NCBI GenBank assembly: GCA_038049695.1
Contig: CP142453.1
Coordinates: 21,802,001-21,866,000 of the forward strand
Origin: Cinnamomum chago
Lineage: Eukaryota; Streptophyta; Magnoliopsida; Laurales; Lauraceae
DNA: 64,000 bases
Reading direction: 5' to 3'
The translations under genes were made by a program, and so were the position numbers. Positions 12,141 through 35,905 of the stretch are shown here, one piece after another. Position 1 is the first letter of the stretch. Each line of letters begins with the position of its first letter. The notes under the pieces are model-generated. The model was not told the origin of the DNA and ran no database searches. It saw only the letters and a program-made list of their open reading frames with translations.

Positions 12141-15100
12141 TAATTCACAACTTGAAAGAGACAATGCACACATCTTCCATAAGATCCTTCTTTTATTGAC
12201 TTATCATTTGAGTACATTTTGAAGTAGTATTTCTTGAGGTGCGCGGCATTCCACGGTCGTGGCAATTCTTTACCATCCATGCTCTCAAGTCTATAGGCCG
12301 ATCTCCGGGATGCCAAGATCACAAAAAAAGGTCCAAGCCAGTTTGGCGCGAGCTTGCCTTCGTTAGGATCCTTGTTCACTGGAAGTGCTTTCTTTAAGAC
12401 CAGTTCCCCGATCGAGAACTTTCTTTCTTTGACCCTCTGATTGTATCCCTAGATAACTGTTGCTGGTAGGAAGTCAGGCGGACAAATACTGCTTCCCTCC
12501 ACTCCTCGGCTAAGTCAAGCTCTTTGGCCAAATTTACTTCATTTTGCCTCTGGTCAAAGAGATATGATTTCAAGGTCGGAAAGCCGACCTCAAGAGGGAT
12601 TATAGCTTCCACCCGTAGGGTAGGGAGAAAAGAGTTGTCGAAGTAGATCGTCTCGAAGTGGTTCTGTACGCCAAAATGACACTTGGTAATTCCTCTACCA
12701 ATCTGTTTTTAGCTCTGTCAAGTCTCTTCTTCAGTCCGTCCAGTACCACCTTATTCGAGATCTCTGCTTGTCCGTTGCTCTGTAGGTAGGCCAGGGTTGC
12801 ATAGAGGTTCCTGACACCGAGCTCATGGCAGAAGTTTTTAAAGAAGTTGGAGTCAAACTGGGTCCCCTTGTCCGATACCAGAGCTCGGGGGATCCCAAAT
12901 CTTGTGACAATGTTCTTCCATATAAAATTCTTTGTATCCCGCTCGGTGATGGAGGATAAAGCTTCTACCTCTATCCATTTGGAGAAATAGTCAGTGGCCA
13001 CAATCAGCCACCTCTTGTTTCCTGGAGTTCGGTGAAGAGGTCCCACGATGTCTAGCCCCCATTGAGCGAAGGCCATGGGCTGGAGAGAGGACTCAAGTCT
13101 TGCGCCGGTTGGTGTAGAGAGTGAGAGAACTTCTAACACTTTTTACATTTCCTGGCGTAGAGCTGGGCATCCTTCTGCATGTAGGGCCACCAGTAGCCCT
13201 GACTGATGGCTCTGTATGCTAGTGATCTCCCTCCGATGTGGCTTCCGCAGATTCCTTCGTGAATTTCAAAAAGGAAGTCTTCAACCTTGCTTGGGTGGAC
13301 ACATTGGAGATATAGTCCCGTGAAGGACTTTCTATAGAGCTTCCCATCTGGGGATAGCCAAGAACGAGTTGTTTTCACTTTAATCTTGTGGGCTTCGTTT
13401 TTGTCTTTAGGGAGTTTATCTTCTTTTAAGAATGCTATGATCGGATCTATCCAACTTGGACCGAGATCGACACACAGGACTTGCCGAGATGGAAGCAGCT
13501 CTATACTTGGTTTTTTCAACGTCTCCACGTCAACTGTTCTTCTTTTTCCGGCTTCTACGACAGTGGCTAAGTTGGCTAGGGCGTCTGCATGACAGTTGGA
13601 CTCTCTGCCGATCTGCTTGACTTCTGTTTTCTCAAACTGGGAGAGGAGTTGCTTTGTGTTGGCTAAGTAGGCTGTCATCCTTTCATTACGGGCTTGATAG
13701 TCTCCGCTTAGCTGGTTCGTCACCAACTAGCTAAAGACTACTCACCGACGTGCCCCCAGGATTTTTGCGCTACCGAGACCCACAATCAGCGCCTCATACT
13801 TCGTTTCATTGTTGGAGGCTTTGAAATCAAGAGTCAGGGCTTGCTTAATGACTAGGCCCTCTGGAGATTGGAGGACTATGCTAGCGGTAGCCCTTCTGGA
13901 TGTCGAGAATCCGTCGACGAAGACCTTCCAAGCCGACTCAATGAACTCGCTGTCCTGGGTTGATATTGGATATCGAATTGCCCTAGTTCGACGGCCCATT
14001 TGGAAATTCTTCCGGAAAAGTCCGCCTTTCGAAAAAGACACTTAAGCTGGTGCTCTGTGACAACCACTACCATGTATGTCTGGAAGTAGTGGGAGAGTTT
14101 GCGAGAGGCACTGACGAGTGCCATCGCAAGTTTCTTGAATGGAAGGTACTTGGTCTCGGCGTCGAGTAGGATTTTGCTCGTGTAGTAAATGGGCTGCTGC
14201 TGCTTGCCGTTCTCTTTGACTAATACCGAGTTTATTGCATGGTCCGAGACCGCTAGATAGAAATAAAGGAGGTCACCTTGTATTGGAGTTGACAACAGTA
14301 GTGGTGATGAAAGGTAGTCCTTGAGTTTCTCCAACACTTGATCACACTCAGGGGTCCACTGAAATTTGGAGCACTTTTTTAGGAGTTGAAAGAATGAGCG
14401 ACATTTGTCCGAATCTCGGCTGATGAAGCGATTAAGCGCAGCGGCCATCCCCGTGAGTCTTTGAACTTGCTTTGCCGAGGTCGGGCTCTAAATCACGGGC
14501 TCTGAATCACCTGGATTACTGAAATCTGCTCTAGATTAGCTTTGAGCCCTCTCCGGGTCACCAGACTCCCTAGGAACTTGCCAGATCCGACGCCAAACGC
14601 ACACTTGGAGGCATTCAATTTAAGCTGAAACTTTCTGAGGATGGCGAATGTTTGGCATAGGTTTGCCAAAATGGTCTTGCGACTTTTTGGACTTGACAAC
14701 CATGTCATCGATGTAGACCTCCACCGTCTTCCTGAGCTGTGCTTAAAACATCTTCGCAACCAGTCTTTGGTATGTTGCCCCAGCATTCTTTAACCCAAAG
14801 GGCATCACTTTGTAACAGTAGATGCCTCGAGGTGTTATGAATGCGGTTTTCTCCTCATCATGCTCATTTATGGGGATTTGGTGGTAACCTCGGTAGGCGT
14901 CTAGAAAACTCATCTTATCATTTCCAGCGGTGGCGTCGATCATCTGGTTGATCTTCGGGAGCGAGAAGCTGTCCTTGGGGCAGGCTTTATTAAGGTCAGT
15001 GAAGTCCACGCAGACCCTCCATTTGCCATTCTTCTTCTTGACCACCATTGTGTTGGCTAGCCATTTCGGATAATGCACTTTGTGGATCGCTCCGGCTTCG

Positions 15101-15660
15101 AGGAGCTTGTCCACTTCTTCAACGACCGCATCCGTCTGTGGGACCCTTGTTCTGCGGGCTTTTTGCACTATGGGCTTGTGTCCGGGGTCCGCGTTTAGTT
15201 TGTGGCACATAACTTCAAGGTTGATCTCAGGCATCTCGTATGGGGTCAAGGTGAAGACATCCTTATTCTGCAGTAGGAAGTCGAGCAGGTCGGACCTTTC
15301 GCTGTCCAGGGAGCTGGCTTCCCAGTAGGAAATATCGCTCGGGGTCATCGAAATTGATCCTGACCTCGGTGAGTTCCTCTATGCTCTTCTGCTCTGCCGA
15401 TGGACTGACGTCCTCGAGTTCGGCCATATGCACTTGCTGCGGCTCTATTTCGCCAAGCACTACGGCCGTGAGGCACTGTCTGGCCATCTGCTAATCTCCC
15501 CGTATAGTTACTATCTCGATCACCCCTCCGGCCTTCTCTTGTGGGAACTTGAGCTTCTGGTGAAAGGTAGAAGGTACTGCCTCCATGGCATGCAGCCAAG
15601 TATGCCCCATTATTACATTGTAAGGAGACGGTGAGTCCACCACCATAAAGTCGGCCATCT
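12140..15660 (-). pseudogene. Gypsy pol remnant: protease end, RT, RNase H, integrase
   Basis: Reading right to left on the minus strand: RT begins near 15348, with KWLANTMVVKKKNGKWRVCV, LDAYRGYHQIP and VMPFGLKNAGATYQR. The catalytic YIDD motif lies near 14700-14715, but in a different frame from the preceding RT part. The RNase H-like fold follows (VFVDGFSTSRR near 13930, then HADALANLATVV near 13570). The H2C2 zinc finger, with HEGICGSHIGGRSLAYRAI and ARKCKKC, spans about 13270-13135. The integrase core (13139-12600) has GLDIVGP, VSDKGTQFDS and SNGQAEISNK supplying the D, D and E residues. The chromatin-side C-terminus ends near 12200 with AAHLKKYY. Several frame changes and stops split the polyprotein, so it cannot make a full product. 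Confidence 0.9.
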
Positions 15661-15905
15661 TGGTGGCACCTCCTATTCAGACCTCGAGTGAGACCCTTCC
15701 CTTGGGATACACCGGCTTTGCGCTGAAACCTACCAAGGGGACGCAGGCTTCTTGTAGATTGGATTCTGTCAGGCCGAGCTGCTTGAAACAGTTAAAGTAG
15801 AGGATCTCGGATGAGCTCACTGGGTCCACAAGGACGCGCTTCACAGTGTAGTTGTTCAGCCGCAGGGTGAGGATGAGTGTGTCGTTGTGGGGGAGCTGGA
15901 CTCCT
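15600..15905 (-). pseudogene. Gypsy aspartic protease remnant with damaged active site
   Basis: Minus-strand reading gives VKRVLVDPVSSSEIL near 15845-15805, where Tat-lineage proteases carry an Asp-x-Gly-Ser type catalytic motif. Here the glycine position reads Val. A typical MVVDSPSPYNVIMGHTWLHA segment lies near 15645-15590. Stops fall between the pieces. In an intact element this enzyme would cut the gag-pol polyprotein. Confidence 0.7.
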
Positions 15906-15925
15906 CCCAGGTCCTCGTCCGAGAA

Positions 15926-17488
15926 CTAGATCTTGGGTTTTTCTCTCCGAGCTTTCTTCGATGCAAGCTCTAACTCGGCCGACATCACCTGTTTGCCATG
16001 GGAAGCCCTCCTGGCTTCTGAGCGAGCTTGGGCACTTCCCCTATTGGTAGCAGGGACCAGGTGAATGACGTTGACGATACCCGCCGGCTCATCGCTGTCC
16101 TGATCCGCACTGGGCGGAGCACGCTGCTGAGCTTGGTTGATCCTCCCCCCCTCCTTGATGTATTCCCGAAGGTGCCCGTCTCTGACGAGCTTCTCGAGGT
16201 GGGATTTCAGGGTCATGCAGTCCTCAGTCATGTGTCCGTGCTGCTTATGATAAGAGCATGACTTGCTCAGGTCTCGGGTGGATGGGTCGCCCTTCATTGG
16301 TTGCGGCCACTGGAAGTAGGGTTCTGCTTTGATTTTGCTGAGGAGTCTGTAGATGGACTCCTTGAAGATAGCATTGATGGCCTTGTAGGGGTCACCGTCC
16401 GGCTTGGCAGGCTTGAACTTCGGCATTTTGCTGCTTCCAGAGAAGTAGGTTGAGAAGTTTGTCGAACTGGCGGTGGCCGTCTTTTTGTCTGGTTTTTGTT
16501 TAGGGAACATCCCTTCTTTTCTTGGGGTTTGACCCTTCTGTGGGAGGCCGAACCGCTCGTTTCCTCGAGCTTCGTCTTCCTCTTGCTCAATGTATTGATT
16601 CACCTTAGCCATCAGCGCTTTCATCGTGGTCACGGGGGTTCAGACCAGGTCTTTGCGGAGCTCATTGCCTAGGAGCAAAGCCTGCCGAAAACACATGATT
16701 GCGACGTCATCTTTGGCGTCCGTGATCTGGCTATAGATCGTCCAGAATCTTCTGGCGAATGCAGTGATGCTTTCATCATCCTTCATTCGAATCGCCATGA
16801 GGTTGTCACCCGTCTTTGGGATGACTTGGTGCGCTTGAAACTTCTCAACGAAGAAGCTTTAGAGCTGCTGCCAGCTTGAGATTGACCCTCCAGGGAGCGA
16901 GCAAAATCATCGGAGGGGAAGGTCGCCTAAACTGGAGGAGAAGACCCTGCAGTTCATGTGGCCGACGTCCCCCCAAACCGACATCCGCTGAGTGAAATGC
17001 CGGAGGTGTGCTTCTGGGTCCGAGGTCCCGTCATAGAGGACTAACCTCGGGACGCTGAATCTCTCAGGAAGAGAGAAATCCTTTATTTCTTGGGAGAAGG
17101 GGGACATGCCCTGGTCTTCTGCATCGCAGGCCTCCGATCGGTCTCGGGTGAAACTGATCTCAGCCATTCGGGCCTGGACCTCTTGTTTGACGTCGTGGTC
17201 GAGCAGTTCCCTTAGGCCTGTGATGTTCTCTGGCCTCAGGGAATCTAGCTCGCGACGCGACCCCCCGAGGCTGCTATGCAGATGCCTGCTGCTCGAGCCT
17301 TCTTCTTCACAGCGATTTCTTCTTCTGTTGTTGAGGACTCGCCTCAAGTCTTGGCTATCCGGATGATTCTGCTGTCGCCCAAGAGGTGGAACAAGAGTCC
17401 TTCTTTCCTTTGCCTTAAGCTGCTCTAGGAGATGGTTAATCAATTGATCATCTTTCTCTTGGAGGACCCGATTTTGGGTCTTGAGCAC
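15926..17488 (-). pseudogene. Gypsy gag remnant
   Basis: The 5' part (17488-16907) ends in FSVPRLVLYDGTSDPEAHLR and HFTQRMSVWGDVGHMNCRVF, a retrotransposon gag core in which a DP-x-x-H-L signature is evident. The next part is out of frame. The 3' part (16633-15926) is Lys- and Pro-rich and contains CSYHKQHGHMTEDC, a zinc-knuckle-like Cys/His cluster usual for Tat gag, then LEKLVRDGHLREYIKEGG. The product would be the nucleocapsid/capsid protein. At least one frame break makes this copy non-functional. Confidence 0.85.
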
Positions 17489-18733: not shown

Positions 18734-20100
18734 AATGAGTAAGAAAAGTCTACATTCTCACGAGTCCTGGCGTTGGGAGAGACGTGGATGAGAGTATATT
18801 CAGAAAACGGTGGATTTCTTCTCCATAACGTGGGTGTTTATATCTCCAAGCACTATCACACATCGGCAACGGATAAGAATTAGCTTTAAAATTCATGGTA
18901 GAATTTTCTTCATGGGTTTTGGGTCTTTGCACTCATAACCTGCCCAAGCTTGCTACTTGCAGGCTGCATCAAACAAGTTACTTCACGCGATTGAAAAGGA
19001 CAACTTCTTGTCCTTCGGAACAAGCGACGTTGGCATGATAAAGTCACTTGAACTTTTGTTGGGAAACTTGAAGAAACTGATGTATTATTGCTGGTTACTT
19101 GCCGCATGTCACGGATGTCAAAATGCTTCTGTGCCGTGAAAATGTCAGTTGCTTTTAGTTATGAGATTTTAAGATATTTTTTTCTTTCATGTGTCACCCT
19201 CTCTCCCCAAAATCGAAAAGCCTGAGACCTTAGCTGTGAGATGGCCTTAACAGGACTAGCGAGTCTGTGAATGATGGCTTTCTGCCGGGCTTTGCTAAGG
19301 AATTGTCAATTGTAGTTTAGGAAAAAAAAAAGGGAAAACAAAACTACGGTTTAGTAATTTTATACGTAAAATAAAGTGTAGTAGAGCATTAAATTATGAA
19401 AGAATAAAATATAATTAGATTGTGATGGTATTTTATTTTTCGTTATTTGGTATGAAATTTTTTTTACTTTCTTTTTTAGTAAAGTGAAGCCTCTTTTAGT
19501 GGAGAAAACGGTTGTTTTTGACTTTTTTTTTTCTTCAAAGGATAAAAGTATTTTGAATTAAAGTATTATTGATGTGATCCATTTCCTAAAAAATAGAGGT
19601 TTTACTTAACTTCTATTTACTAATCTAATAAAGTGCCAAATGGGCTCTAAAAGAAGTGTCAGCCTCTAATTTATCGCAGCAAACCACTGCATTGCAGAGC
19701 TGAGTTACCCAAGTTCAAAAACACTTTGGATCAAACAGCTAGGGTGGACAAATTTGATTTGACCCACAACCCAACCCAAACTTACACGCATTTGCCCCAC
19801 CAACCTGACCCACGTGACATACAGGTCAGTCATGGATTGAGTTTTACTGACCCACATATCCCCTATATTAGGTTTATCTCCAAAACGTATGTCTTTAAAC
19901 TCAACCTCTAGGATTCTCCACTTCCTCTTCCTCTTCTACTTCCACTTCCACGACCTTCCACTTCAAGTTGCAAGTCTCTCTGCAAATTTTGTTGGGGTTT
20001 CTTTATCTGCACATATTTGTGTATATTGTAGTGGGCTTGGGGTAGGCATTTACAAATAGAGAAGAAACATGTGATTGGACGTGGACCTTATCCCAACATT
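18734..20100. other. Intergenic, no gene recognised
   Basis: Short open frames here (for example 18957-19139 plus and 18910-19107 minus) have no recognisable domain. GACCCA/CAACCC motifs around 19742-19860, after GCTAGGGTGGACAAATTTGA, look like the end of an old hAT-type element, but I found no partner end. AT-rich, low-complexity sequence covers 19320-19640. Confidence 0.4.
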
Positions 20101-20461
20101 TTTCATTAAATAAAAGACTATTTGATTGTCAGTTTTGGACATTCATCTTTATTTCTTCATTTTTTTCATTAGAAATCTTTAGAAATTTAATTACATGAAA
20201 CAAATGGACCCTTGAATTTGAAGGTTATTCAGAACTTGAGATGGGCTCAAGTCCTACATGTTCAAATTGAAATAAATATATGAAATTATAGACACACATT
20301 TTATTGTGAATATACAAAGAAATATCATTGGACTTAAGCTCCATTCTATGCTTCGGCTTGAAACTCAAGCAAGTTATGGGAGGTGGTGAATACTCAAATT
20401 GACTGAGTTTGAAGAATTCCTAAGTTTGATTCCATAGCCTAAAAAGTGAAGTTGCATCCAT

Positions 20462-20684
20462 TCAACCCCAAGGGGTTGACTGAGTGGTAAAGACCACGGT
20501 TTCTCCCTATTTTGGAGTTAAAGGTTTTGATATTGACTCCCAGATTGCCCTTTCTTCCGAAATCAAAGGTTGAGTCCACTATTGCTACCACTTTGGGGTT
20601 ACAGGGGTGTTTACCCGGCTTCCCTTTGGGTATGGAGGGATTAGTCCACCCCTTTCCCACATATAACAAAAAAAAAAAAAAAAA
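20462..20684 (+). mobile_element. tRNA-derived SINE (copy 1)
   Basis: A 223-bp element has a tRNA-like head with an A-box-like TGACTGAGTGGTAAAGACC and a diverged B-box region (GGTTTTGATATTGACTCC). A conserved 3' part (CTACCACTTTGGGGTTACAG, TTTACCCGGCTTCCCTTTGG, GATTAGTCCA) ends in a 17-base A-run. It is flanked by a perfect 13-bp target duplication, AAGTTGCATCCAT, at 20449-20461 and 20685-20697. The same 3' part occurs in the element at 51021-51196. It would be transcribed by RNA polymerase III and mobilised by LINE machinery. Confidence 0.93.
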
Positions 20685-20949
20685 AAGTTGCATCCATCCC
20701 ACTCAGTGGATCTGGATTCGGATCCTTAAGGCCCGCCTAGTTGCAACCCGTGAGCTACCTATACACAGCCTACAAAGTCACCCCCTCTTGAGAACCAGAC
20801 GACTGAAGTGATGGAACCCTAGAACGAAAAAAATTGTAAAATTCGCGGGTTCGCATTGTATCTGTTCTCTTTTCCAATCTTCGATCATTCGCATTGAAAG
20901 GTGAAAATCTCGCCATTCGCATTGAATAAAAGCGAAGGAAGATTCTTCA

Positions 20950-20996
20950 ATGGCGTCCGTAGAGAGACATCACAAGGAGCAGATGATTCGTCGGAA
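20950..20996 (+). other. Duplicated SMU2 first coding exon upstream of the PORR gene
   Basis: The 47-nt exon encodes MASVERHHKEQMIRR plus two bases and is followed by donor GTAGGC, exactly as in SMU2 exon 1 (35814-35860, MASVKKHHKEKMIRR). The two exons differ at four bases (three amino-acid changes, one silent) and have no indel. A candidate acceptor (TTGTAAATTAG) ends at 21338, one base before the PORR ATG at 21340. Splicing would complete a Lys codon and enter the PORR frame, giving a 413-aa chimera. Whether this splice is used is unknown. The exon could otherwise simply be part of the 5' leader. Confidence 0.7.
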
Positions 20997-21339
20997 GTAG
21001 GCATTTCTCACTCGTTTCTCTTTTTTGCTTGGAATCTGGGTTTTCCGTTTCTAGCAATCGGTTTCTGTTCTTTAGGTTATATCCGAATCCACCCTTCCGG
21101 CTTGGTTTTGAAATCGAAACTCCTTCCATCGATTCCCCTACATTGGTTGGTACTGAAATCCCTTGATTTGAATGTCCATAACCCAGGCTCTTTTTGGGTT
21201 TTGCCGAATTCTAGATTACACACCTTACACAGAACAGTGAAAAAGGACAAATCTTTTTTGGTTTCAAGTTGAATACCCGGCGTTGGTCAATTCGCTTTCC
21301 TGGTATTGAACTTAGTGACCCAAACTTTTGTAAATTAGG

Positions 21340-22533
21340 ATGCAGAAAAATCGAATATTGGTTTCTCTTACACACCATCTGTCGCCAATACTACCTGTAT
21401 GTTCTTTATCAGCTGCTTCAATTTCCAGCCTCAAAGTAGAGTGGCGGAAGGACCGGCCGTTGGATGGTGCCATCGAGAATGACAAGCAATGGCGTCTCTG
21501 TGCCAAAGTCGTCAAAGAAGTCCTTAATGAACCCGGGCAAGTAATTCCACTCCGGTATCTAGAGAAACGTCGGGAAAGACTCCGTCTTCCCATCAAAATC
21601 AAGACTTTCCTCAATCGAAACCCCGGGCTATTTGATATCTACCTCGATCGGATCAAGCCCAAAACCCAACCTGTACCATTCCTCCGTGCCAGCGACCGGC
21701 TCCAGCGCTTCCTCGAGGAAGAGAAGCAGATAAAAGCTGAGAATGAGCGTTTTCTCGTTTCGAAGTTGTGTAAATTGTTGATGATGTCCAAGGATAAAGT
21801 CCTGAGTGCTGATAAATTGTTCCATGTGAAGAGGGATTTTGGTTTCCCAGATGACTTCTTGTGTAATTTGGTGCCGAAGTACGAGGAGTATTTTCAGTTG
21901 GTGGGTAGTCCTGGTGAGGGAAAATCGTTCTTGCAATTGCGTTCTTGGGAGCCTAAGTTTGCGAAATCTGTCATAGAGATGAGAGCTGAAGAAGAGTCCC
22001 AATTGACTGGGATTCGTGTCCGGCCGAATTTTAACTATCGTCTACCACCTGGTTTTTTTCTGAAAAAGGAGATGAGGGAATGGGTTCGAGATTGGATGGA
22101 GATGCCGTATATCTCACCTTATGAAGATGTGTCGAGTTTGAGTCAGGCATCGCCAGAGATGGAGAAAAGAAATGTGGGTGTTTTTCATGAGCTTCTTTCG
22201 CTTTCAGTTCTGAAGAGGATGCCTGTCCCGACGCTAGGAAAGTTTTGGGAGGAATATCGATTTTCAAATGCGTTTGGGAATACTTTCACAAGGCACTCAG
22301 GGATCTTTTATGTGTCACTGAAAGGGGGGATTAAGACGGCAATGTTGAGGGAAGCATATGATGGGGAGGAACTGATTGATAAGGACCCTTTGCTTGCTAT
22401 TAAAGAGAAGTTTATTGAGTTGTTGGAAGAGGGGTGGCGGGAGCAGGGAGAGAGGATGAGATTGAACAAGGAAAAGATTCAGAAAGAGATGGAGAGATCA
22501 GCTAGCAGGAATGTGGAAGGGGTTGGTTACTAA
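21340..22533 (+). CDS. PORR-domain protein (WTF9-like), predicted organelle intron splicing factor
   Basis: An uninterrupted 397-codon frame with no intron after its ATG. Residues about 30-390 match the plant organelle RNA recognition (PORR, DUF860) family: KVVKEVLNEPGQVIPLRYLE, FLNRNPGLFDIYLDRI, FLVSKLCKLLMMSKDKVLSA, DFGFPDDFLCNLVPKYEEYF, RLPPGFFLKKEMREW, ALKRMPVPTLGKF-like LSVLKRMPVPTLGKF, and HSGIFYVSLKGGIKTAMLRE. Family members such as WTF1 and WTF9 bind group II introns in plastids or mitochondria and aid their splicing. The length and the basic/hydrophobic N-terminus (MQKNRILVSLTHHL) favour a mitochondrial protein of the WTF9 type, but this is inference. The promoter region is a copy of that of SMU2, 14 kb downstream, and the gene may use the copied first exon (20950-20996) as an alternative N-terminus. 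Confidence 0.9.
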   Translation: MQKNRILVSLTHHLSPILPVCSLSAASISSLKVEWRKDRPLDGAIENDKQWRLCAKVVKEVLNEPGQVIPLRYLEKRRERLRLPIKIKTFLNRNPGLFDIYLDRIKPKTQPVPFLRASDRLQRFLEEEKQIKAENERFLVSKLCKLLMMSKDKVLSADKLFHVKRDFGFPDDFLCNLVPKYEEYFQLVGSPGEGKSFLQLRSWEPKFAKSVIEMRAEEESQLTGIRVRPNFNYRLPPGFFLKKEMREWVRDWMEMPYISPYEDVSSLSQASPEMEKRNVGVFHELLSLSVLKRMPVPTLGKFWEEYRFSNAFGNTFTRHSGIFYVSLKGGIKTAMLREAYDGEELIDKDPLLAIKEKFIELLEEGWREQGERMRLNKEKIQKEMERSASRNVEGVGY

Positions 22534-25500
22534 ATTTGCTCTATCTGACCAATAAACTATGAACATATGTAGAAAACTAATCAGATGTTTGATGTGTTTT
22601 GATTTATCTGAAATAAGGAGCATCTTGGGTATTTCAGCAGAATTGGAATTTGGAATGGCCAACTACTTGTAGGTTATTTTCTTTTTCTTCTTCTTTCTTC
22701 TTCTTCTTTTTTCTTTTTTTGGTAAATGCTTGTAGGTTGTGTTTGGAGCACTGGTTTGAATCTTAATTGTAGTAATAGTTCCTGCCTTCCCCAAATTATT
22801 ATTCAGAATGCTCCAGGTATGCATCTTCATGGGCTGGGCTGCTTTGGCGTTTCCCCAAGCCTGGATCATATAGTATTGGGTAAATATTTAGACCCAGACC
22901 AGCCCATTTGCAAACTTCATATGCCAAATTGTGTTAAATATGTCATGCCTGGCTGGGACCTTAAGCAATATTAAAAAATGAAACTACTCTTTTCTTGAAC
23001 GATTAGTGATTCAAGATTTTTGAGGTACTGAAGATGGAAAACCTTTTTTTTTTTGCTTTGGCGGAGAATGCTTCAGTTGCATTATTTAATCAGTATGCAT
23101 GCTCCAGTTGCATGTGGCAGGCAGTGTCCCGTCATGAAAGAGAGAGTATGTTTGGCAGCATGGAATCTCATTAGAACATTTTGCGGTCATTTGGGTGAAT
23201 AAAAATCGAGAGTTTCACATTTCTCTGGAGAAACCTCTTCATACTCTTTCCTTTCCATTTTTGGACAGTTCCAGAGAAACTTATTCTCTCCTGCTTCAAG
23301 AGGAGAAACTGCCAAGAATATTCTAACTCTCAGTGCAAACCAGTCTCTAAATCAATAGAAAAACCAGCGATAATACCAGTTCTACACTCAGGTAGAGATT
23401 CAGATCTCCACAACAAGACGACTCCAAACCAATCTCAACTACAATCAACAAGAGATGAATGACTTCTAGACTTCTAGTGTTGATTAGTGCAATAGTAAGG
23501 AAGGATTATGCAAGACCAGCACGATCAAGCCCAAGGAAGTCAAGATCCAGGCAGGAAGAAAATTGATTTACTTAATTAAGGTAACTGCTTTTCTTATCAT
23601 TTCAAATTCAATTATGGCTTTCATTATCCTTTCTTTTTCATTGTTTTAATTCATAATACTACCCTGCCAGTTGCATGGCATACACTAGGAATAAAACCCA
23701 TGCGCGAGGCAGAAAAGTACAAATAAGCTTTAAAAGGAAAGAGAATAACCTATACAAATAAGTCATAATCAAGTTCAAGAGCCTACAAAATGGACATATC
23801 TTTTATCAAGTGCCCACAGGCCACATTACCTGTACAGGCTGTACATCTATACGATCTTAATTTTCCATCAATAGCCAACAAAACGAACAGGGTTACTGTC
23901 CTTTTGCATCATCAAACAAAATTGTTATGCATTGCCACCAGTTGGGATTTGTTGTGTGTTTGGTTCTATTAATTCTCAGAGCGTACAATGTTAACAAGTG
24001 TGAATTTAGAGACAATCTAATTTCAAACTTCCCAGTACATTATATTCAACTAGGAAATTATCCAATTATGAGAAACTTAAAAAAAGATCCCATTTAGTCA
24101 CTCTTTTTTATGTAAAAGAAAATAGAATTCATCTCACTTGTGACTGCCATATACCAATGCGGAGTGAATTAATCTTTATATAAAGAAGCCAAAAAGGACA
24201 TTCAAGTGCACGAATAAATCTAAATGAAAAATCAAATCCATCTTAGCCGATTTAAAATATGTAAAAATAATGTATAAACATCATATAATGTAAACAATAG
24301 TAACAATTAACTAAAAAGACTTAAAAATAATGGATAAACATCATATAATGTAAAAAACCATAAAAACAAAAAAAAAGACTAGCCTTTTGACCCATCCAAA
24401 TGGACCATACAAACACAAACCCCCTATTGTCATCGAATCCCATGGATTTGAATGGACTGGACCGTTGGATGGAGGGTCAATTTTCGTTGTTTGATATAAA
24501 GCCATTAACTTGTGGACCACGGATGAAGGGGTTAGAGGTATTAGATTGACATAGAATTTGATATCTAGGTTGGCCCCACTTGAATCTTTTGATCCCCTCT
24601 GTCCCATGATCAGTGGGGTCCCACGGTGGGCCTCACTCGATGGTCCTCACTGTAAGACCCGGAGGACCGTCCTCACAGGACCGGAGGTTCATTTCCTTTG
24701 TGGATTGTATGAATTTTCCTTTGTGGATTGAGGTTTCCCTTTGAGTTTCATTTCCTCTCCATGAAAGTCTCTTTGCAACTTTGTTTTTCCGTGCTTCGAC
24801 ACCTTCATCTAGTTCGATTAAACCCTTCCATAGGGTTTGCATCATGTATATATCGAGCAAATTGTTTTCTTAGAGGCATCATAGAGATATGTTTAAACCT
24901 AATAAAGGGGGTTGTAGAACGCATATGCATGAGATGTTTATTTGTCTGGACAATTTTCTCCTGCCCACTGCGCATTGACGCCATCCATAACGTGGGACCT
25001 GGTGAAATTCAGGGTGGTCCCGCTTTTGTTGACGGCTTGGATGCCCACGTGCGGAGGAGAAGAAGTTCCCAATTTCTCTACGTGATACTTTTAACTTAGT
25101 GGAAAACATGTGAGGACTGAAGGATGACATATAAAGTCCTTTATTGGGAAGAAAAGGCAGGCATGATTTTAACAAAGTGGTCATTTAGGAAGACATAATT
25201 ACATCAGATTTCACGGGATAGTCAGTTGAAATTTGACTTTGCCAACTATGCTAATAGTGCATGGTTGTGGCATTCTCCTGCTTAGGGAGAGGTATCGGGA
25301 TCGATGTGCGTGTGACGGCTGCCATATTGGTTTTGGTCTTGCCTAATTCTTAGAGTTTTTTATGATGCAAATAAAAGTGGCCTTTTCATTGAAGGGGTGT
25401 AGAGTGAAGGACTGGGTGGGGATCTAGAGGAGACCATCAAACTCCAAGGATTTAATTTCATAGGGCGAAGTGTGGGCAATCATTTCTCATTGAAAAGTTA

Positions 25501-26054: not shown

Positions 26055-29000
26055 CTAGGCAAAGGTGTTTGAACCAACATCATTTGGATTATCGACAATG
26101 TCTGCAATGGTGAGATTCTCGTTGCTGTAGAAGAGGTCCTCTAGGTTATATGGCCCTACGGAGAATGGTGGTCCGCTCCAAAGTGCCTTTGCAAATTGCT
26201 CGTGGATCCTTTCTGTTGGATGGAAAGAATCCCACCATACATAATCTCCGGCTTTGTCACATACCTTGTAATCACTCACTGCCTTTTTCCCTCCACAACT
26301 GAAGACACCCCCATAGGGTCCTGTCCCACAACAGGCATTGACCCCATCCTTGAAATCTTCAACATCAAATTAGCAAAGTCTTCCATTAATATACTCAGTT
26401 TTTATCAGCAAACAAGAGATTAGAATAAAGCAGCAAAACAAAATACAAGATATATGACCGATCACCATAGAACATGGTAATGAGTACAGCGTATAAATGT
26501 GATGATAATGTTGTTGTTAAGGTGTTGCATCCAGTTTCCTTGAAATTAAGGATTCAAAAGAAGCAGCTATAAGAGAGGCATTAGAAAATTTTAAAGTTTT
26601 TTTCTGGTCAATTAATAGTGGAGAGCGACTCACCAAATGCCACAATGTCAGATTTCAAATGCTGTGATGTGCCCTTGGAGATTTATTACAAATGAGATGA
26701 AGGAAAGCTACAATAGTGGTGGTGATTTTTGGGTATATTTTGAGAAGTGAAAATGAGAAAGCGGATGCACCGATGCATACTTTAAGAAGTGTAAATGAGA
26801 ATTTGGAAACAATAAATTGATAGCATTGATATTTGATATGTATATGTGGCTCATGTTGTAATATTTCTTTTCTTTTCTGTTCCTTTGTTTTGTATGTATC
26901 TTATACTGAGTGAGCCTTTTGTACTTTCTTTTCTTTCTCGTGAAATTTACTGTTTCTGTTTGAGAGATAACTAATTACGTTATATTTATATTTTATATTT
27001 TACTGTTAGAAAGAAAAAGGAAAGTAGGAAACAGTTGCAGTTTTTTTTTTTTTTTTTGGGGGGGGGGGGAGGGGGTGGTGCTTAAGAATTTTGTGGTCTG
27101 AGCTTTAGCAGGCACTGATTCTCTACTTATGGGGCCATAATTAAGCCACCTAGATCGTTAGCTTGATTGCACCATTACTAACGAGGGGTTTTCTATAGAG
27201 TGTCACAGATGTTCTTGCTATTTAGTGGTTTATAAGTGGACAGGCAAACAGTTTAGGGAACTATGTGACAAAAATGAACAGGCCCTCAAATTGAGAATTC
27301 TAGAGAGAGAGAGAGGCTTGCAGTAGTACCATATTTATCTGGGTGGTGCATTCTGTCATTGAGCCAATTGTAAAAATTGGAATTGGAGTATTTGAAGCCT
27401 TTTAAGATATGTTCCAGGTTGGTGAGAACAGCTGAGAGTGCATTGTTATGTGCTAGTGCTAGCGCTGATGCTTCTTCGAGACAACCCCCTTCAGCATTGG
27501 TGTTTAAGGCTCTTAGTGCAGGTAAGCAACCCAAAGGAGACAAGCTTAGAAATCCAAACTTCCTGCCTCCCTTTTGGTATAGTACCTACTACCACATAAC
27601 AAAGCCATATGACTGAGAGTACTTAGAATTAGTTACTCTTTTTTTTTTCAGATTAAAAAATATTGAGATTTCAGTGAATCAATTCATGCAAATGCAAGCT
27701 ATTACAGATTATGAATGATGCACTACACAAAAATAGAGCAGTGTGAGATCACTTACAAAATGCACAGTACCAAACATCAGCAACGTTGCATAGTTAGAAT
27801 TTAGAAATTCAACACTGAGTTTTTTTTTTCTTTTTAAATTTTCCTAATAGTTTTAGGATATTTACTTGATCATTTCCATACATTTATATACTCAATTTAT
27901 GAAACTGTCGATTCTATTTTTTTCTTGTATATAAATATTGAAAGTATTTACCTGCACACCAGTTCAGATAACTATATGCATAGCCGCCCTCCACTCTGTC
28001 TTTCCCCAAGGAAAAAAGGAAAAAACATGCACACACAGAGAAGGAAAAGGGGAGAAAATGAAGAAGAAATGGAAGACAGAAAAAAAAAAATCCTGGCAGT
28101 CTCTCTGAGGTGTCAAATGATATTGGTGTTACTACCCACTGGACACCCCATTTTTTGCAGCTGATTTTGGGGCCTTAAATTAGATATCTATGATAATTTG
28201 ATAAGGCTAGTTTTTGGAACTTCCCTAATCCATGAAAGTCCCCTTGTCGTCTTCCCTTGCCTTAGTGATTGGCATCCATTTAGGGGGATCCCTTGAGGTG
28301 GTTTGCATATAAGTGATTTTCCAATTGGTTTTGTGAGAAAATTCTTCAGGTGTACAGGCTAAAAACTAACTTCAATCCCAGGTTTCATGCACCCTATATC
28401 TACTATGAATAGTGGGGCTCACGTGTCATTGGCTGTACCCTCACATGCACACACTATCCCCATAAATTGGTACTCACCTTAATCTGATATGATCAACCAT
28501 TGTTCATATTAGACTGAACCAAAGGAAATATTGTTCTCAGGGAACCACTGAGTTTTGATGCCCTAAAACCGTTGATTGGAGGGGTATTTGGCCCTTTCCT
28601 AGTCCAATGAAACTGAATGGTATCATGAGGGAACCGGTTCCTTAATTTAAAGTAAAGAAGTTATTGCTGAATTTCACACTAATTTGAACTCATCGAACCT
28701 GTGTTTAATGTTGAATGAAACTTTAAGAAATGGCATATCTGAAAATACATTCTATGGGCAGATTAGTCATTTTATGTTTCATTAACACAGTTTTTAATTT
28801 TTTTTACTCATGTATTTCTGTATTGTTCAGTATTGAGAGATATAGGAGCTTTTAGAAACATAATTTATAGGATCAGTAGTGGCACTTCTTTAATCATTGA
28901 GCAGAAGAAAGATATTTTGGAATCTTCTCCTATGTTTGGATTTCACTTCTGAATACTTTGTTGACATTGAGATTTTTGAAGAATCTGAGCATTCATTTCT

Positions 29001-31045
29001 TTTTTCCAAATTAATAGAACCCAAAATTGTATTTACAGTGACATTACTTGCAAGCACAACACATTTCAGTATTGAGATATTAAGCCATGAAAGAAAAAGG
29101 CTCACCTGGATTGCTTGCGTTAGGTTTCCTATAACCATGCTGATGTACTGTTCTGGAGGGAACAATTCTTGCATTTTAGGATTCCCCAAGTAGCCACCCA
29201 TGTAATCGTTACTTCCAATACTGATGAAATAGACGGCTTCTGATATCAGTTCCCTTGCTTGCACATCTCCCAGCTTTTCTGTTAATGAGTTTTGCACCTC
29301 TTCAAAGTATTTGAGTTGTTTCTGAAGGTCAATAGCCTGAAAATAACAAAGCCCATTTATTTATTTATTTAACAGCTGAAGGATCATTGACTTTAATTAA
29401 TGAACAGAAGTTCAATAAATCAAGAATAGAGCATGATTTCTTCTGTTGGAACTCATCTTTACATGTTTAGATGGCATTTAGTTGCTCTATGAATTTAATT
29501 TGATTATTTTATGTTGTGCAATGAAGTGGTCAGACTATTGTGTTACCATAATTTGTGTAGCGAAGATCTGGCAGCTCTCGATGCAGTTAATTACTTTTGA
29601 ATATTAACTTTGACTCAAAAGAAAGGCAGGTGCAATTTGAGGGCCACATCCTCATTATGATCACTCAGGGATGTCTCCAAAATTTTGTCTTATCAAACTA
29701 GACTATGTTTGCAAAAACAACGGTAAATAGAGCAGTGTTGCAGTTTGTTACTATCGTTACATGGTCTCTCTGTGTGCATGTGCGCGCACGTGTGGCTGGG
29801 GCATTTGCTCTTGCTTTCCTATTCCTTTTAGTATATTTTCACGATACTTGATTGAATACATGTTTTTGAATGGCGTGATAATTGATTGCATAAGGTACAG
29901 TGGAGTTAGTTCCCACGTAAATTACAAAATTGTTTGATTATTATGAAAGGAAGATGAAAATCACTAACCTGGCCTTGATTTGTTTCAGGAAGAACACCTG
30001 CTCCGCCAGATGCGAAGTTAGCGCCATTTAGAAATTCGGCAGATGGTTGTAGAAATGGAGGTATTAATGGAAGTTTTGCATATTCAGCTGTGCATCAATA
30101 GAGGGGAAAAAAGTTCATTAATGTTAAGATTGAGCTGACATCCTCCTTATCCTTACAGAAATACGGCTTGTTTTTCCTACTAGCATTGTAGGGACAATGA
30201 GGGGATGTAGTTTTGGTCTCTTGAGCTCATAACAAGGGCATCTTTGTCATCATGGATGCATAGAAGTATTGAGATATACATGTCTGTGAAACCAAGATGC
30301 CAACATTACTCAACCATAAGGGAGACATTGTTTACAATTAATGAAATGCTAATAAAATCATAAAATTGTATTCATCATATCTTTTTAAATGCAATATGCA
30401 GAATTTGAAATGTGGGTGGACATTATAACCATAATAGATTGTATGTCCTTGAGTGGAGCAGGGGTGGGGTGCGTCAAATTTGGTGTGAATCAAATCGTAC
30501 TTGACTTAGGTTTGAAGCCCCCAAAGCAAGATGGTATTTGAAGTGTCCAGTTTTTTCATCATTCAATCCTATATCAGATGAGCCTGAACAAGGTCAAATT
30601 TGGGTGTAGTGATTGTTGGTGGGACTGGATGCATCATAGTTGGGCCCTAGGTATGAGATCCTCGTGGGTGCTTAAGACAGTGTGGTGCAGGCTACACTCA
30701 GATAAAAAAGGAACTGGATGATGAGCAAGTACATGGAATTAAAAAAAAGAAGGTTCTAATCTGCATTTCATATTTACCAATAAAATCAACAATAACACGT
30801 CCATCAGTGAAGCGTCCAGTGGGGCCTTTGAAGAAACCATTTTGCCCGTATGGTGGGTAATTTGCTTGGTTTTCTGGGATTGTTTGGATGTAATTGTTGT
30901 TGCCAGGATCCACCGTTGAGTCGCCGAATATGAACAAGGCAGGGGTCTTTCTTGACAAGCTCAAATCTGCCCAGGAGCTAATTGCTTTGCTGAAGATGAT
31001 GGCGAGGATGAAGAAGTGGAAATGTGAACTCATTAGCCTTGCCAT
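26055..31045 (-). CDS. GDSL esterase/lipase (GLIP-type), 5 exons, complete
   Basis: Exons on the minus strand: 31045-30778, 30087-29969, 29336-29106, 27585-27330 and 26356-26055. All junctions are GT-AG and keep frame, giving 391 aa, usual for plant GDSL lipases. Residues 1-26 form a signal peptide (hydrophobic FFILAIIF core), pointing to secretion or the cell wall. Block I is [14 protein letters not shown] with nucleophile Ser43. The block II glycine lies in NFASGGAG (113-120), block III is SIGSNDY with Asn172, and block V is [10 protein letters not shown] with Asp334 and His337. A complete SGNH catalytic set is therefore present. The enzyme is expected to hydrolyse ester bonds in lipids or acylated cell-wall components, but the natural substrate cannot be read from sequence. 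A TATA box lies at 31080-31087. Introns 3 (1.5 kb) and 4 (1.0 kb) hold no recognised gene. Confidence 0.96.
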
Positions 31046-31079
31046 TTTAGTTTCAAGGATTCACTGGACTGGGTGGGAC

Positions 31080-31087: not shown

Positions 31088-31787
31088 CAATCCAAATGCT
31101 AGAATGGGCGGTTTTCTCAAAGAAAGCGGCTAATTTGTTTCATCGAGCTACACAGCCTATAAAGACTCAGTTATGTGAAATAAACTCTATGTATCACGAC
31201 CAGTAGTTTTGCCCTCAGAGAATAAGACATGGGGCTTTGTTTTCATCGCCAAGTAGACTTGAAGATGTCAATCTGTCCTTGGATTCCTCATAGTTTGTTT
31301 TTTCTTTTCAGATGACGGGTATACAGGACCTCTTACTATTATATATTTAATGAAGAGCAGGCAGGGAGTGTGGGTTTCAAGTTGGCCAGAAAACCAGGTA
31401 CAGATCGTTTTCATATTATTGCTATACTGGATAAATAGAACCTTTCCCAAGAAATGCTTATAATTGTGATTGAACATCTCCCAAGGCCAATAAATGAGAT
31501 TCAAGTCGCTTTTTCTAACGAGCCCTCGTTTAGATTGATTTTGGTTTTAATCAGAAATCAGGATTGACACACTGGGTTTAAGTTTGACCCCATCGGAGAA
31601 GGACCTCCAAAATATATTTAGTGTTCTTGTATTAATGATGAGCAACAAGATATTAAATTTTTGTGGATTTTGAGAAAATTTGTAAAAACATCCATGCACG
31701 TAAAATTGATGTAATCATTTACATACGTTAAAATGGTGATTTTGACAAATAAAGTAATGTATTTCATGTGTATAATATTAGTGTCTA

Positions 31788-32042
31788 TATATATATAGAG
31801 AGAGAGCAACGAGAGAGGGAGAGCTATTAGCGAGAAAGAGAGGGAGAGCTCGACGAGATCGGGAGAGATGAAAAATCGCACGAAGATAAAAGGGGGAAAT
31901 GAAAGGTGCACGAAGATGAAGGGGAGAAATGAAAGGTGTAAATGAGAAGCGCGGGCCCATGTTTTCATTTTGTTTGCTTTTCTCTGTTCTGCCCAAGCCA
32001 CACGAGCAACTCGCACGCGGCAGCTCAGGAGAGCTAATCCCC

Positions 32043-32106
<64 letters not shown>
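31788..32106. repeat. TA/GA-flanked inverted segment
   Basis: This begins TATATATAGAGAGAGAGC and ends in a (TC)n(TA)n tract (32041-32106). Facing GAGAGCTATTAGC and GAGAGCTAATCC motifs give a weak inverted repeat. The inside has short repeats of GGGGAAATGAAAGGTGCACG type. No gene. The long frames seen here come from microsatellite. Confidence 0.5.
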
Positions 32107-32108
<2 letters not shown>

Positions 32109-32221
32109 GAGATGCTCCTATGAGAGATAGGAGTGGGGGCATTTACATTTAAGTAGTTGGCATTGGATATGGATGTGAGGGCCGCCACCTTATCTCTCAT
32201 AGTAAGGTAAGAGCATCTCCC
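32107..32221. mobile_element. Small MITE (115 bp) in TA tract
   Basis: Starts GGGAGATGCTCCTATGAGAG and ends with the facing CTCTCATAGTAAGGTAAGAG plus CATCTCCC. (TA)n lies on both sides. A further half copy, GAGCATCTCC, follows at 32227-32236. Confidence 0.7.
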
Positions 32222-32247
32222 ATATGAGCATCTCCATATATATATAT

Positions 32248-32623
32248 GGGGTCAGCTCTCCTAAGCTCAAGCTTAGGATAAGGTAAGCTCAAGTGTGTGG
32301 TGGGGCCCACCTGGGGATCCACATGGGGATAGGGGTAGGGGGGATTTCAAGAACTTCATGGGATCTTCCTTTCTACAAAAAATCAGCCCCAAATGCAATT
32401 TCTATCATCTCCATATGGGCCCAAAAGTTTAATGGTCAACGGTCCATTTGGATTGATATATAGTTGATCCAACAGTCGAGTAAATTCGGATCTGACCGAA
32501 ACTTAGTGGACATGTTCAATTTAGGGAAGTCATGTATTTGGTCCATTTGGATGGACCAAAGGTGGGCCCCACAAGCATGAGCTTAAATTTTTTTTTCTTA
32601 AGCTTGAGCTTAGGAGAGCCTTG

Positions 32624-32626
<3 letters not shown>
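32248..32626. mobile_element. MITE (about 380 bp) in TA tract
   Basis: Terminal inverted repeats are CTCTCCTAAGCTCAAGCTTA (from 32256) and the facing TAAGCTTGAGCTTAGGAGAG (32599-32618). It is flanked by (TA)n at 32236-32247 and 32626-32659. No coding capacity. Confidence 0.8.
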
Positions 32627-32659
<33 letters not shown>

Positions 32660-32662
<3 letters not shown>

Positions 32663-32915
32663 CAGGGCTCTCTTGGGCTGAGGCTTAGCTTATTCTAAAA
32701 TGGAATTGTGCTGGTCTTACAAATTCAAGTTGATTATATCTATTTTTTGCATGATGAAACTTGAAAATCTAGTTTTGATTGGATTTATATTGATTTTGAA
32801 GACGATCTTGATGTAAAAAACAACAATAATCGACTTTGATTTGTAAGACCAGCACTATTCCATCTTACGATAAGTTAAGTTCCAATTTAGGAGAGTTGAC
32901 TTCTATATATATGCG
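32660..32915. mobile_element. Long-TIR MITE (about 255 bp) in TA tract
   Basis: The two halves are inverted copies over about 80 bp. AATTGTGCTGGTCTTACAAA (from about 32704) faces TTTGTAAGACCAGCACTATT near 32850, and the ends carry CTCTCTTGGG and CCAATTTAGGAGAG. The transcript would fold into a near-complete hairpin. (TA)n borders both ends. Confidence 0.8.
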
Positions 32916-33356
32916 CTAATATTATATACATGAAATACATTACTTTATTTGTCAAAATCACCATTTTGATATAAGTAAATGAGTACATCAATTTTACGTG
33001 TATGGATGTTTTGGATTTTTTACAAATTTTCTCAAAATCCACAAAAAATTAATATCTTGATGCTCATCATTAATACAAGAACACTAAATATATTTTGGAG
33101 GCCCTTCTTCGTTGGGGTCAAACTTAAATCCCGTGTCAATCCTGATTTCTGAATAAAACCCAAAATCAATGTATGAGCGCTCGGATAGAAAAAAGCGACT
33201 TGAGCCTCATTTATTGGCTTTGGGAGATGTTCAATCACATTTATAAGCATTTCTTGCGAGATGTTCTATTTATCCTGTATAGCAATAATATGAAAACGAT
33301 TTGTATATGTAACGTTTACACGTGTTCCCTGTGCAAAAGTCAAATGAGCACTGTAT

Positions 33357-34395
33357 TAGGGCTTGTTTGACAAATCTTATCTTTATGAAGCAGATCTGTA
33401 TGATATAGATCTATTTCAAATGGAGCGGTTTGAAATTGATGTTTTACAAATAGACTGTTTGGTAAGACATAGATATTTTAAAAATAGACTGTTGGTAAGA
33501 CACATGTAAAAATAGATCTAATGGTCTGGGCATTTTGTAAATATCTCAAGATCTGTGATCATCCAACGGTTGAAATTCTATCTCAAACACGTGTTCCACA
33601 TTTTAATGACTATAGGCGGTTTGGATCTTGCATTTAGGAGCCATGATTTAAAAAAAAGTATATATAAATGTCTGTCAATTTTTTGTAAATATCTCAAAAT
33701 CTATGATGATCCAATGGCTAAAATTTGGACCCTTAGTCGTGAATGATCTTTTGAATATATCCAATGGTTTGGATCATGATTTATGGTGCCTGAATTTAAA
33801 AATAAAAATAAAAAACCACACTGCCGTGTACAACTTCAAGACTCAGTCACTAAGGCATGGGACATCAATGGTAAAAAACGTTTTTGTAAATATCTCAAGA
33901 TCCACTTTGAATTAGAGGCTTACTTTTTGGCCCATAGCCGTTTTTGGCCCTCCAAAGAGAACCAACGGATCAGATCGTGATTATGGGGCCCACAATGTTC
34001 AGAATATTAGATCGAATGACTTATAATTTTTTACAAATATCTCGAGATCCGAGATAGATCAACGGTTGAAATTTTGACACATGGCCGTGTTTGACCTTCT
34101 TTATATATCTAGCGGTCCGAATCATGACTCTGGGTCTCATAAATTTAAAAAAAAAAAAATTGAAAAAACAGACTGTGCCATGAGGACGTCCGTTTCAGGC
34201 TACAGTCTTTCTGCTTCAGACAGCTACCATTGATTCAAATCTGCATCTTTTGCTGGCTTCTTGAAATGGAGGCCATTCATCTAAACACCATTGCAAATAG
34301 ACTTAACACTTTGAGTTACCAAACCGTCTTAAAACTGTTATAAACAGTTTTAAAACAAATAGAGGTAATAATAAGAGATGCCAAACGCCACCTTA
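33357..34395. mobile_element. Non-autonomous DNA element, about 1 kb
   Basis: The left end TAGGGCTTGTTTGACAAATC and the reverse complement of the right end, TAAGGTGGCGTTTGGCATCT, are similar imperfect inverted termini, both followed by a TTATT/CTTAT motif. The inside repeats the theme 'ATATCTCAAGATC...CCAACGGTTGAAATT' several times (about 33540, 33690, 33890, 34040). No transposase is present. A related copy lies at 5600-6545. No target duplication was found. Confidence 0.6.
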
Positions 34396-34699
34396 GTGTT
34401 GAAGTTGCTAAATGGGCTAATTTTGTGCCCTATTTGAATTGCTTTAGTTTGAAAATGAAAGGCATTTTGTAGCAGTGCAGCTTGGTGGTGGCCAAAGTGC
34501 AAAATTGCACAAAACCTGATTGGTTCTTGGTTGTTTGGCTCTGCATAGGAATTATATGCATGGAATTTATAGTCAAATGAGTTCAAGTAAATAATTATTA
34601 AATATGTGAGGGACGAAAGATAAATGTGATATTTTCTCGAGATATGAATTATTAAGATAATGGTTGAATATTTATTTTCTATCTCCATTTTATTCTTCT

Positions 34700-35905
34700 T
34701 TTCGTTAAATAAAAGACTATTTAATTGTTATTTTTGGATATTTACATTTATTTCTTCAAATTTTCCATTAGAATTCTTAGAATTTAATTACATGAAATAA
34801 ATGGGCCTTTGGAATCAAAGGTTGTTCAAAACTCAAGCCGGGCTCAGGTCTTTCATGTTCAAATTGAAATAAATATATGAAATTATAGACACATATAATG
34901 TGAACTTATCATCCCATATACGGTAAATTTCGGGAGATCCTATATATGGTAAGCATGTTCACTTTGAGGAGCTCCGATTTTTTTTTTTCCTAGGTGGGGC
35001 TTACTATGGAGTTACACTAAGGAATTCTTCGAACTCGCCTCATTCGAGTATTTACCACCTCCCATGACTTGCCTGAATTTTAGGTGCCGAAGCATAGACT
35101 GGAGCTTTAAGTCCATTGATATTTTTACGGATGTAAATGGGTACTCGATTCTCCAATTACCATAATCCAGAGGTTCCGACCCGTTAAAAAACAGGTCCGG
35201 GTCCTTATTTAGGCCCTGATGAGTAAATGATGCCGGGTTCGGTTCCACCTTGGTTAGGACTCTTGGACTCAATACCCGACATATTACCTCAATTTTTGAA
35301 AATCTCTCATAAAAATCATATTTTTTTAATATCATTTTCTACGTAAACTCAGACTCAGATTCAGACCCATCCCATTTATGGTTCTAGTTCCGGAGCCAAG
35401 AAACCAGTTCTGAAAAAGATCCGGATCCGAATCTGGATCCACCTTCTTTTTAACGGTCTCGGTTTTAGGTCCACGATGGACTTGGACCGGAGCCCACCAG
35501 AGTACCCAACGTGTAGATCTCCACATCCCTGGATCAGGACTCGGATCCTTAATAACTCGAGCCCCACTAGTTGCAACCCGTGAGCTACATATAGCCTACA
35601 AATTCACTTTTTTTTATTTTTTCGAACTTTAAAACCAGACGAGTGAAGTCAAGGAACCCTAACGAGAAAATTTGTAAAATTCGCGGGTTCGCATCGAGAG
35701 GAGTCATCCAATCTTTGATCATTCATTCATATTTCAAGATTCCATTTCGCGACTCAAGATTTTATGAAAATTATCGCCATTCGCATTGAATAAACTCGAA
35801 AGAAGATTCATCAATGGCGTCCGTGAAGAAACATCACAAGGAGAAGATGATTCGTCGGAAGTAGGCATTTCTCACTCATTTCTCCTTCTTGCTTTTGAAT
35901 TTAAG
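34700..35905 (+). repeat. Copy B of the SMU2 5' module (at SMU2 itself)
   Basis: This is the partner of 20100-21035. Block 1 is 34700-34900, the inverted block 2 is about 35015-35125, and block 3 is 35525-35905 with 5' UTR, exon 1 and the start of intron 1. Between blocks 1 and 2 there is an inserted small palindrome (GTGAACTTATCATCCCATAT facing TATATATGGTAAGCATGTTC, about 34901-34968). Between blocks 2 and 3 lie about 400 bp (35130-35520) that are absent from copy A. Confidence 0.88.

Follow-up and report, generated by a model that had tools for sequence, protein, structure and literature searches.

In a 64,000-nucleotide (nt) stretch of Cinnamomum chago DNA (contig CP142453.1, positions 21,802,001 to 21,866,000; here called the window, in whose coordinates all positions are given), the 5′ end of an SMU2/RED gene is duplicated directly upstream of a single-exon PORR gene. 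The duplication is real, as are its limits and the intact reading frames of SMU2 and PORR. The copied first exon, termed exon 1′, is probably a relic of an old partial duplication of SMU2, without a coding role. An old, partial and non-processed duplication would have placed ~1 kb of the SMU2 5′ end, in the same orientation and 14.6 kb from its source, before a single-exon PORR gene that was already there. The copy would since have drifted through substitutions, indels and a SINE-like (short interspersed nuclear element) insert, with an inversion in either the copy or its source. PORR translation would then start at its own ATG at 21340, and, if transcription does begin within the copy, exon 1′ would most likely belong to the 5′ leader of PORR as a 16-codon upstream open reading frame (uORF), and not supply a fusion protein with its N terminus. 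Taken as a whole, the arrangement looks like a partial gene duplication of the ordinary kind.

The duplicated blocks and their probable source

Self-comparison by blastn of positions 19000–24000 against the full window recovers three blocks common to 20100–21030 (copy A) and 34699–35894 (copy B), with E-values (1e-56, 3e-26 and 2e-59) that set chance aside as the source of the matches (Table 1). The proximal block, 20707–21030 in copy A and 35530–35894 in copy B, is identical at 272 of 375 positions (72.5%), with 61 gap columns. Identity of the middle and proximal blocks shifts with gap costs, blastn giving 99/121 and 272/375 with gaps, as against 102/116 and 273/304 without gap columns; on the latter count the distal block has 169/198. 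SMU2 upstream DNA, the 5′ untranslated region (UTR), the 47-nt exon 1 and the same donor site are thus all found upstream of PORR, as an original prediction from the sequence had claimed, and the inversion of the middle block is a feature beyond that account. Copy A is significantly homologous to the 5′ portion of an intact gene, as expected of a partial 5′ duplicate, and it carries 34 nt of intron as well as UTR and upstream DNA that amount to ~850 nt with the insert counted, as expected of a non-processed one.

Table 1. Features of the window, with the duplicated region and the PORR and SMU2 genes first.
Feature	Position	Strand	Details
Copy A, distal upstream block	20100–20299	+	Corresponds to 34699–34896; blastn 169/200 identical, 84.5%, E 1e-56
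Copy A, middle upstream block, inverted	20320–20437	-	Corresponds to 35124–35004; blastn 99/121, 81.8%, E 3e-26
SINE-like insert (20462–20684) with poly(A) tail between two AAGTTGCATCCAT copies	20449–20697	+	Label SINE assigned by eye
Copy A, proximal promoter side and 5′ UTR	20707–20949	+	Corresponds to 35530–35813; identity 199/223 over aligned bases; 13 gap openings
Exon 1′, copy of SMU2 exon 1, encodes MASVERHHKEQMIRRK	20950–20996	+	43/47 identical to 35814–35860
Copy of the SMU2 donor (GTAGGC) and of the first 34 nt of intron 1	20997–21030	+	31/34 identical; detected homology ends here
Proposed acceptor AG	21337–21338	+	One base before PORR ATG; weak
Single-exon PORR gene, 397 amino acids	21340–22533	+	PF11955, E 1.9e-110, residues 37–366
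Copy B, duplication source: SMU2 upstream DNA, 5′ UTR, exon 1, intron 1 start	34699–35894	+	blastn
SMU2/RED gene (copy B), 11 exons, 561 amino acids	35814–50304	+	Predicted from splice signals and protein continuity
Probable GDSL esterase/lipase gene pieces between PORR and SMU2	26055–31060	-	
hAT-type transposase with BED zinc finger	853–2948		PF14372, PF02892 for 853–2469
LTR (long terminal repeat) retrotransposon ORFs	12600–16624	-	Integrase core PF00665 at 12603–13076
LTR retrotransposon ORFs	54854–59067	-	Copia-type RVT_2 and gag at 54857–56140 and 58597–59067

The SMU2 product has no internal stop over its 561 residues, carries RED_N (2.6e-84, residues 5–222) and RED_C (2.5e-44), and matches "Protein Red" in the PDB (2e-73), in entries which we take to be spliceosomal. 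Both domains are present in copy B only. Copy A is a truncated copy, since it holds just the part for residues 1–16, and because copy B alone belongs to a full gene, A presumably derives from B.

PORR, a plant family according to its Pfam description, is represented here by a gene that is intronless, with its ATG one base after an AG, in agreement with the original prediction. Within the window, tblastn matches to PORR occur only at 21340–22530, with no second copy near SMU2. The gene is followed by its own AATAAA at 22551, and may also have its own transcription start, given a TATA-like stretch at 21078, inside 21031–21340. The mitochondrial PORR gene Fse5 of rice is also single-exon and encodes 399 amino acids (PMC7947098); the lack of introns and a start of its own are therefore normal for a PORR gene, which needs no leader exon.

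Limits of the copy and later changes

No similarity above shuffles connects 21031–21340 with the remainder of SMU2 intron 1 (score 22; 128 of 200 shuffles as high) or 19701–20100 with 34301–34700 (score 20; 120 of 200 as high). With nothing similar beyond either edge, the homology takes in 34 nt of intron 1 and leaves 309 bases between its end and the PORR ATG. Insertion of PORR into a copied SMU2 intron was rejected on the same ground, as 21031–21340 shows no intron 1 similarity above shuffles. At copy A, a tblastn search with SMU2 matched only residues 1–16, with no further SMU2 exons nearby.

Within these limits, ~400 nt of copy B (35125–35529) is without a counterpart in copy A, and the SINE-like insert of copy A is not seen in copy B. 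The insert has a 13-nt target duplication (AAGTTGCATCCAT at 20449 and 20685) and an A run at 20668–20686, and part of it (20585–20648) is 81% like 51128–51065 in the opposite orientation by blastn. No tRNA genes or Rfam families were detected within the window at default thresholds, and a tRNA origin of the insert is accordingly unsupported. A short foldback (GTGAAC...GTTCAC) was noted by eye at 34896–34963, beside the inverted block of copy B, and might have aided the inversion. The terminal inverted repeat pairs that bracket the whole copy are short and imperfect (17 nt at 76%, 19732/21088; 13 nt at 85%, 19711/21301). They are not convincing enough to favour capture by a transposable element (TE) of the Pack-MULE or Helitron type, although Helitron ends were not searched for.

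Possible constraint on exon 1′

Retention of exon 1′ for use, which the original prediction had suggested, finds no support in its divergence. The exon differs from SMU2 exon 1 at four positions in 47, namely K5E, K6R, K11Q and one synonymous change. Its identity is 43/47, compared with 501/571 over the remainder of the copy, where 70 of 571 positions differ (Fisher p = 0.64). Where copy A is taken as neutral and SMU2 as constrained, 3.7 differences are expected in the exon, close to the four seen. Changes run at three nonsynonymous to one synonymous, in a sample of four changes only; the probability of at least three nonsynonymous changes is 0.017 if omega is 0.1 in both copies and 0.09 if omega is 0.2. 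With copy A drifting and constraint acting on SMU2 alone, three amino-acid changes are what one would expect; they lend no support to retention for use, and copy A appears to have evolved neutrally and to have gone unused. The PDB alignment of RED starts at residue 8, with K5 and K6 outside it and K11 paired with a Protein Red lysine at low posterior. In the upstream part of copy A, the TATA-like stretch is changed and the AACCCTAA of the SMU2 leader is lost.

It is true that the exon contains no indel, as had been pointed out, but this is not special, the gap-free run that holds exon 1′ being 123 nt (20908–21030, UTR and intron included) against 115 nt (20184–20298) in the non-coding distal block. 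The probability of no indel in 47 nt is 0.16–0.19 with all divergence assigned to copy A and 0.40–0.44 with half. The lower figure counts 22 gap openings, two of which are end gaps (block ends 20300 and 21031), and dropping both gives 0.19 instead of 0.16.

Several observations weigh against a relic. Joint retention of ATG, frame, GT and an indel-free exon has a chance of 0.07–0.08 when the full divergence between copies is placed on copy A, a setting at which it mildly favours the original prediction; with half the divergence the chance is 0.26–0.28, and the retention is unremarkable. Four differences over 47 nt are too few to exclude weak constraint, and a PORR leader need not conserve the lysines of SMU2. 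The copy, moreover, ends only 309 bp before the PORR ATG and could well fall within the promoter or leader of PORR.

Possible splicing of exon 1′ towards PORR

Joined at 20996 and 21339, exon 1′ and PORR form one open frame of 413 amino acids in which MASVERHHKEQMIRRK adds 16 residues to PORR, and on paper the frame-keeping splice of the original prediction thus holds. Acceptors were scored on two matrices, a general one with rounded values and one built from ten inferred SMU2 introns, and the AGs considered across 21047–21699 were those up to 21340 plus the in-frame ones (13 in all). Among the ten AGs in 21047–21340, only that ending at 21338 enters PORR in frame. It reaches 4.50 on the general matrix (third of the ten upstream AGs), below all ten SMU2 acceptors (4.71–10.74), and -2.73 on the SMU2 matrix (ninth of ten), on which the SMU2 acceptors run from -3.03 to 7.84 with a mean of 3.25 and a single one (-3.03) falls lower. 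Of the acceptor described as usable, then, the AG is present after a weak tract, but the matrix scores are low. It is outscored on both matrices by the acceptors at 21075 and 21186, from which translation would meet a stop after 45 and 24 codons, and by an in-frame AG inside PORR that ends at 21428 (4.75 general, 5.84 SMU2), splicing to which, at 21429, would remove PORR residues 1–29.

Among 2000 block shuffles, 42.6% create one or more in-frame entries located no later than the ATG, and an in-frame entry is found for 17 of the 29 window ORFs of at least 100 codons (PORR and transposon ORFs on both strands among them). In-frame entries being this common by chance, a frame-keeping acceptor is no evidence by itself. 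Base composition is likewise no argument against splicing, because the candidate intron before PORR (59% A+T, 37% T) falls inside the range of SMU2 introns (59–68% and 30–46%). Left unspliced, exon 1′ is a 16-codon upstream ORF that closes with the TAG at 20998–21000 and is followed by a 22-codon ORF from 21172.

A leader spliced to 21339 would put E5 and E10 before the native PORR N terminus, which lacks acidic residues ahead of position 34 and would keep its amphipathic stretch; PORR targeting might then either be weakened or persist. A coding use of exon 1′ is possible but not supported.

Alternative readings

Next to a relic, the reading that deserves most weight, though it is rather unlikely, is that the copied SMU2 promoter drives PORR, with exon 1′ in the 5′ UTR either unspliced or spliced to a better acceptor such as 21075 or 21186, its ATG acting as a uORF and PORR still translated from 21340. 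The closeness of the copy edge to the PORR ATG would suit such a capture, as would the advantage of both acceptors over 21338 and the short ORFs that end at 21000 and begin at 21172, and rice rpl6 acquired a TE-borne 5′ UTR with an intron (PMC2631504). The promoter-side block (199/223, 13 gap openings), however, shows no visible excess of conservation over the distal block (169/198), and the TATA-like stretch at 21078 could provide PORR with a start of its own. The chimera of the original prediction, in which 20996 is spliced to 21339, is improbable. Its frame is open over 413 codons, its donor is identical to that of SMU2 and rice rps11-1, Arabidopsis sdh3 and carrot rps10 carry presequences copied from other genes (PMC2631504), but the acceptor is weak on both matrices beside those of SMU2, the leader would set a glutamate at residue 5 ahead of an N terminus free of acidic residues before 34, and exon 1′ bears no sign of constraint.

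Two further possibilities are very improbable. In one, exon 1′ serves SMU2 as an alternative first exon, spliced from 20996 over PORR to exon 2 at 36840. Exon 1′ with SMU2 exons 2–11 forms an open frame of 561 amino acids without internal stops, the acceptor used before exon 2 would be that already inferred for SMU2, and in PEP1 both first exons are spliced to the same exon 2 (PMC3527215). Against this, the intron would need to span 15,843 nt and hold PORR, with its own AATAAA at 22551, as well as the probable GDSL lipase gene on the other strand, and three lysines at the start of RED_N, which begins at residue 5, are changed. In the other, to which we give just as little credence, the copied promoter and exon 1′ would give PORR alternative N termini, with 20996/21339 adding a basic prefix and 20996/21429 replacing residues 1–29; PORR expression, and perhaps location, would in that case be tied by one duplication to a nuclear spliceosome gene. 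An unused relic of partial SMU2 duplication remains the favoured account.

Neighbouring elements

Of the probable GDSL gene, the last piece (26055–26369) matches PF00657 at 16.5 bits, below cut-off, and the first piece, near 30698–31060, was assigned by eye. A large inverted repeat at 31399–33305, whose arms of 120, 116 and 109 nt flank an AT-rich centre and are 91–94% complementary, resembles a foldback or MITE-type (miniature inverted-repeat transposable element) element. The ORF at 2544–2948 looks, by eye, like the end of the hAT-type transposase.

Relation to known systems and significance

Comparable arrangements have been described in other plants. A search for papers naming both SMU2 and PORR listed two, in each of which either term occurs once. 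In PEP1 of Arabis alpina, exon 1 and parts of the promoter and of intron 1 are duplicated 6.3 kb apart (PMC3527215). As there, part of a promoter, exon 1 and part of intron 1 are copied upstream in the same orientation without other exons. Unlike PEP1, where both first exons are shown to be transcribed and spliced to one exon 2 (PMC3527215), the present copy has an unrelated gene directly downstream, and its transcription is hypothetical. The position of a leader from a foreign gene or TE before a gene for an organelle protein recalls rice rps11-1, Arabidopsis sdh3, carrot rps10 and rice rpl6, whose leaders supply targeting or UTR to newly transferred genes (PMC2631504). In contrast to these, a plausible targeting N terminus is already present in PORR, and what the copied exon encodes is the N terminus of a nuclear protein. 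A truncated gene copy beside foreign sequence also resembles the class of partial duplication with recruitment in a review of gene duplication (PMC3449122), the difference from that class being that exon recruitment is only a candidate here.

As a relic, the copy would be one more partial gene duplicate that carries a promoter to a place before a foreign gene, and so material from which promoter capture and exon shuffling can start. Should PORR use the copy, a component of the nuclear spliceosome and an organelle intron-splicing factor would share a promoter by descent.

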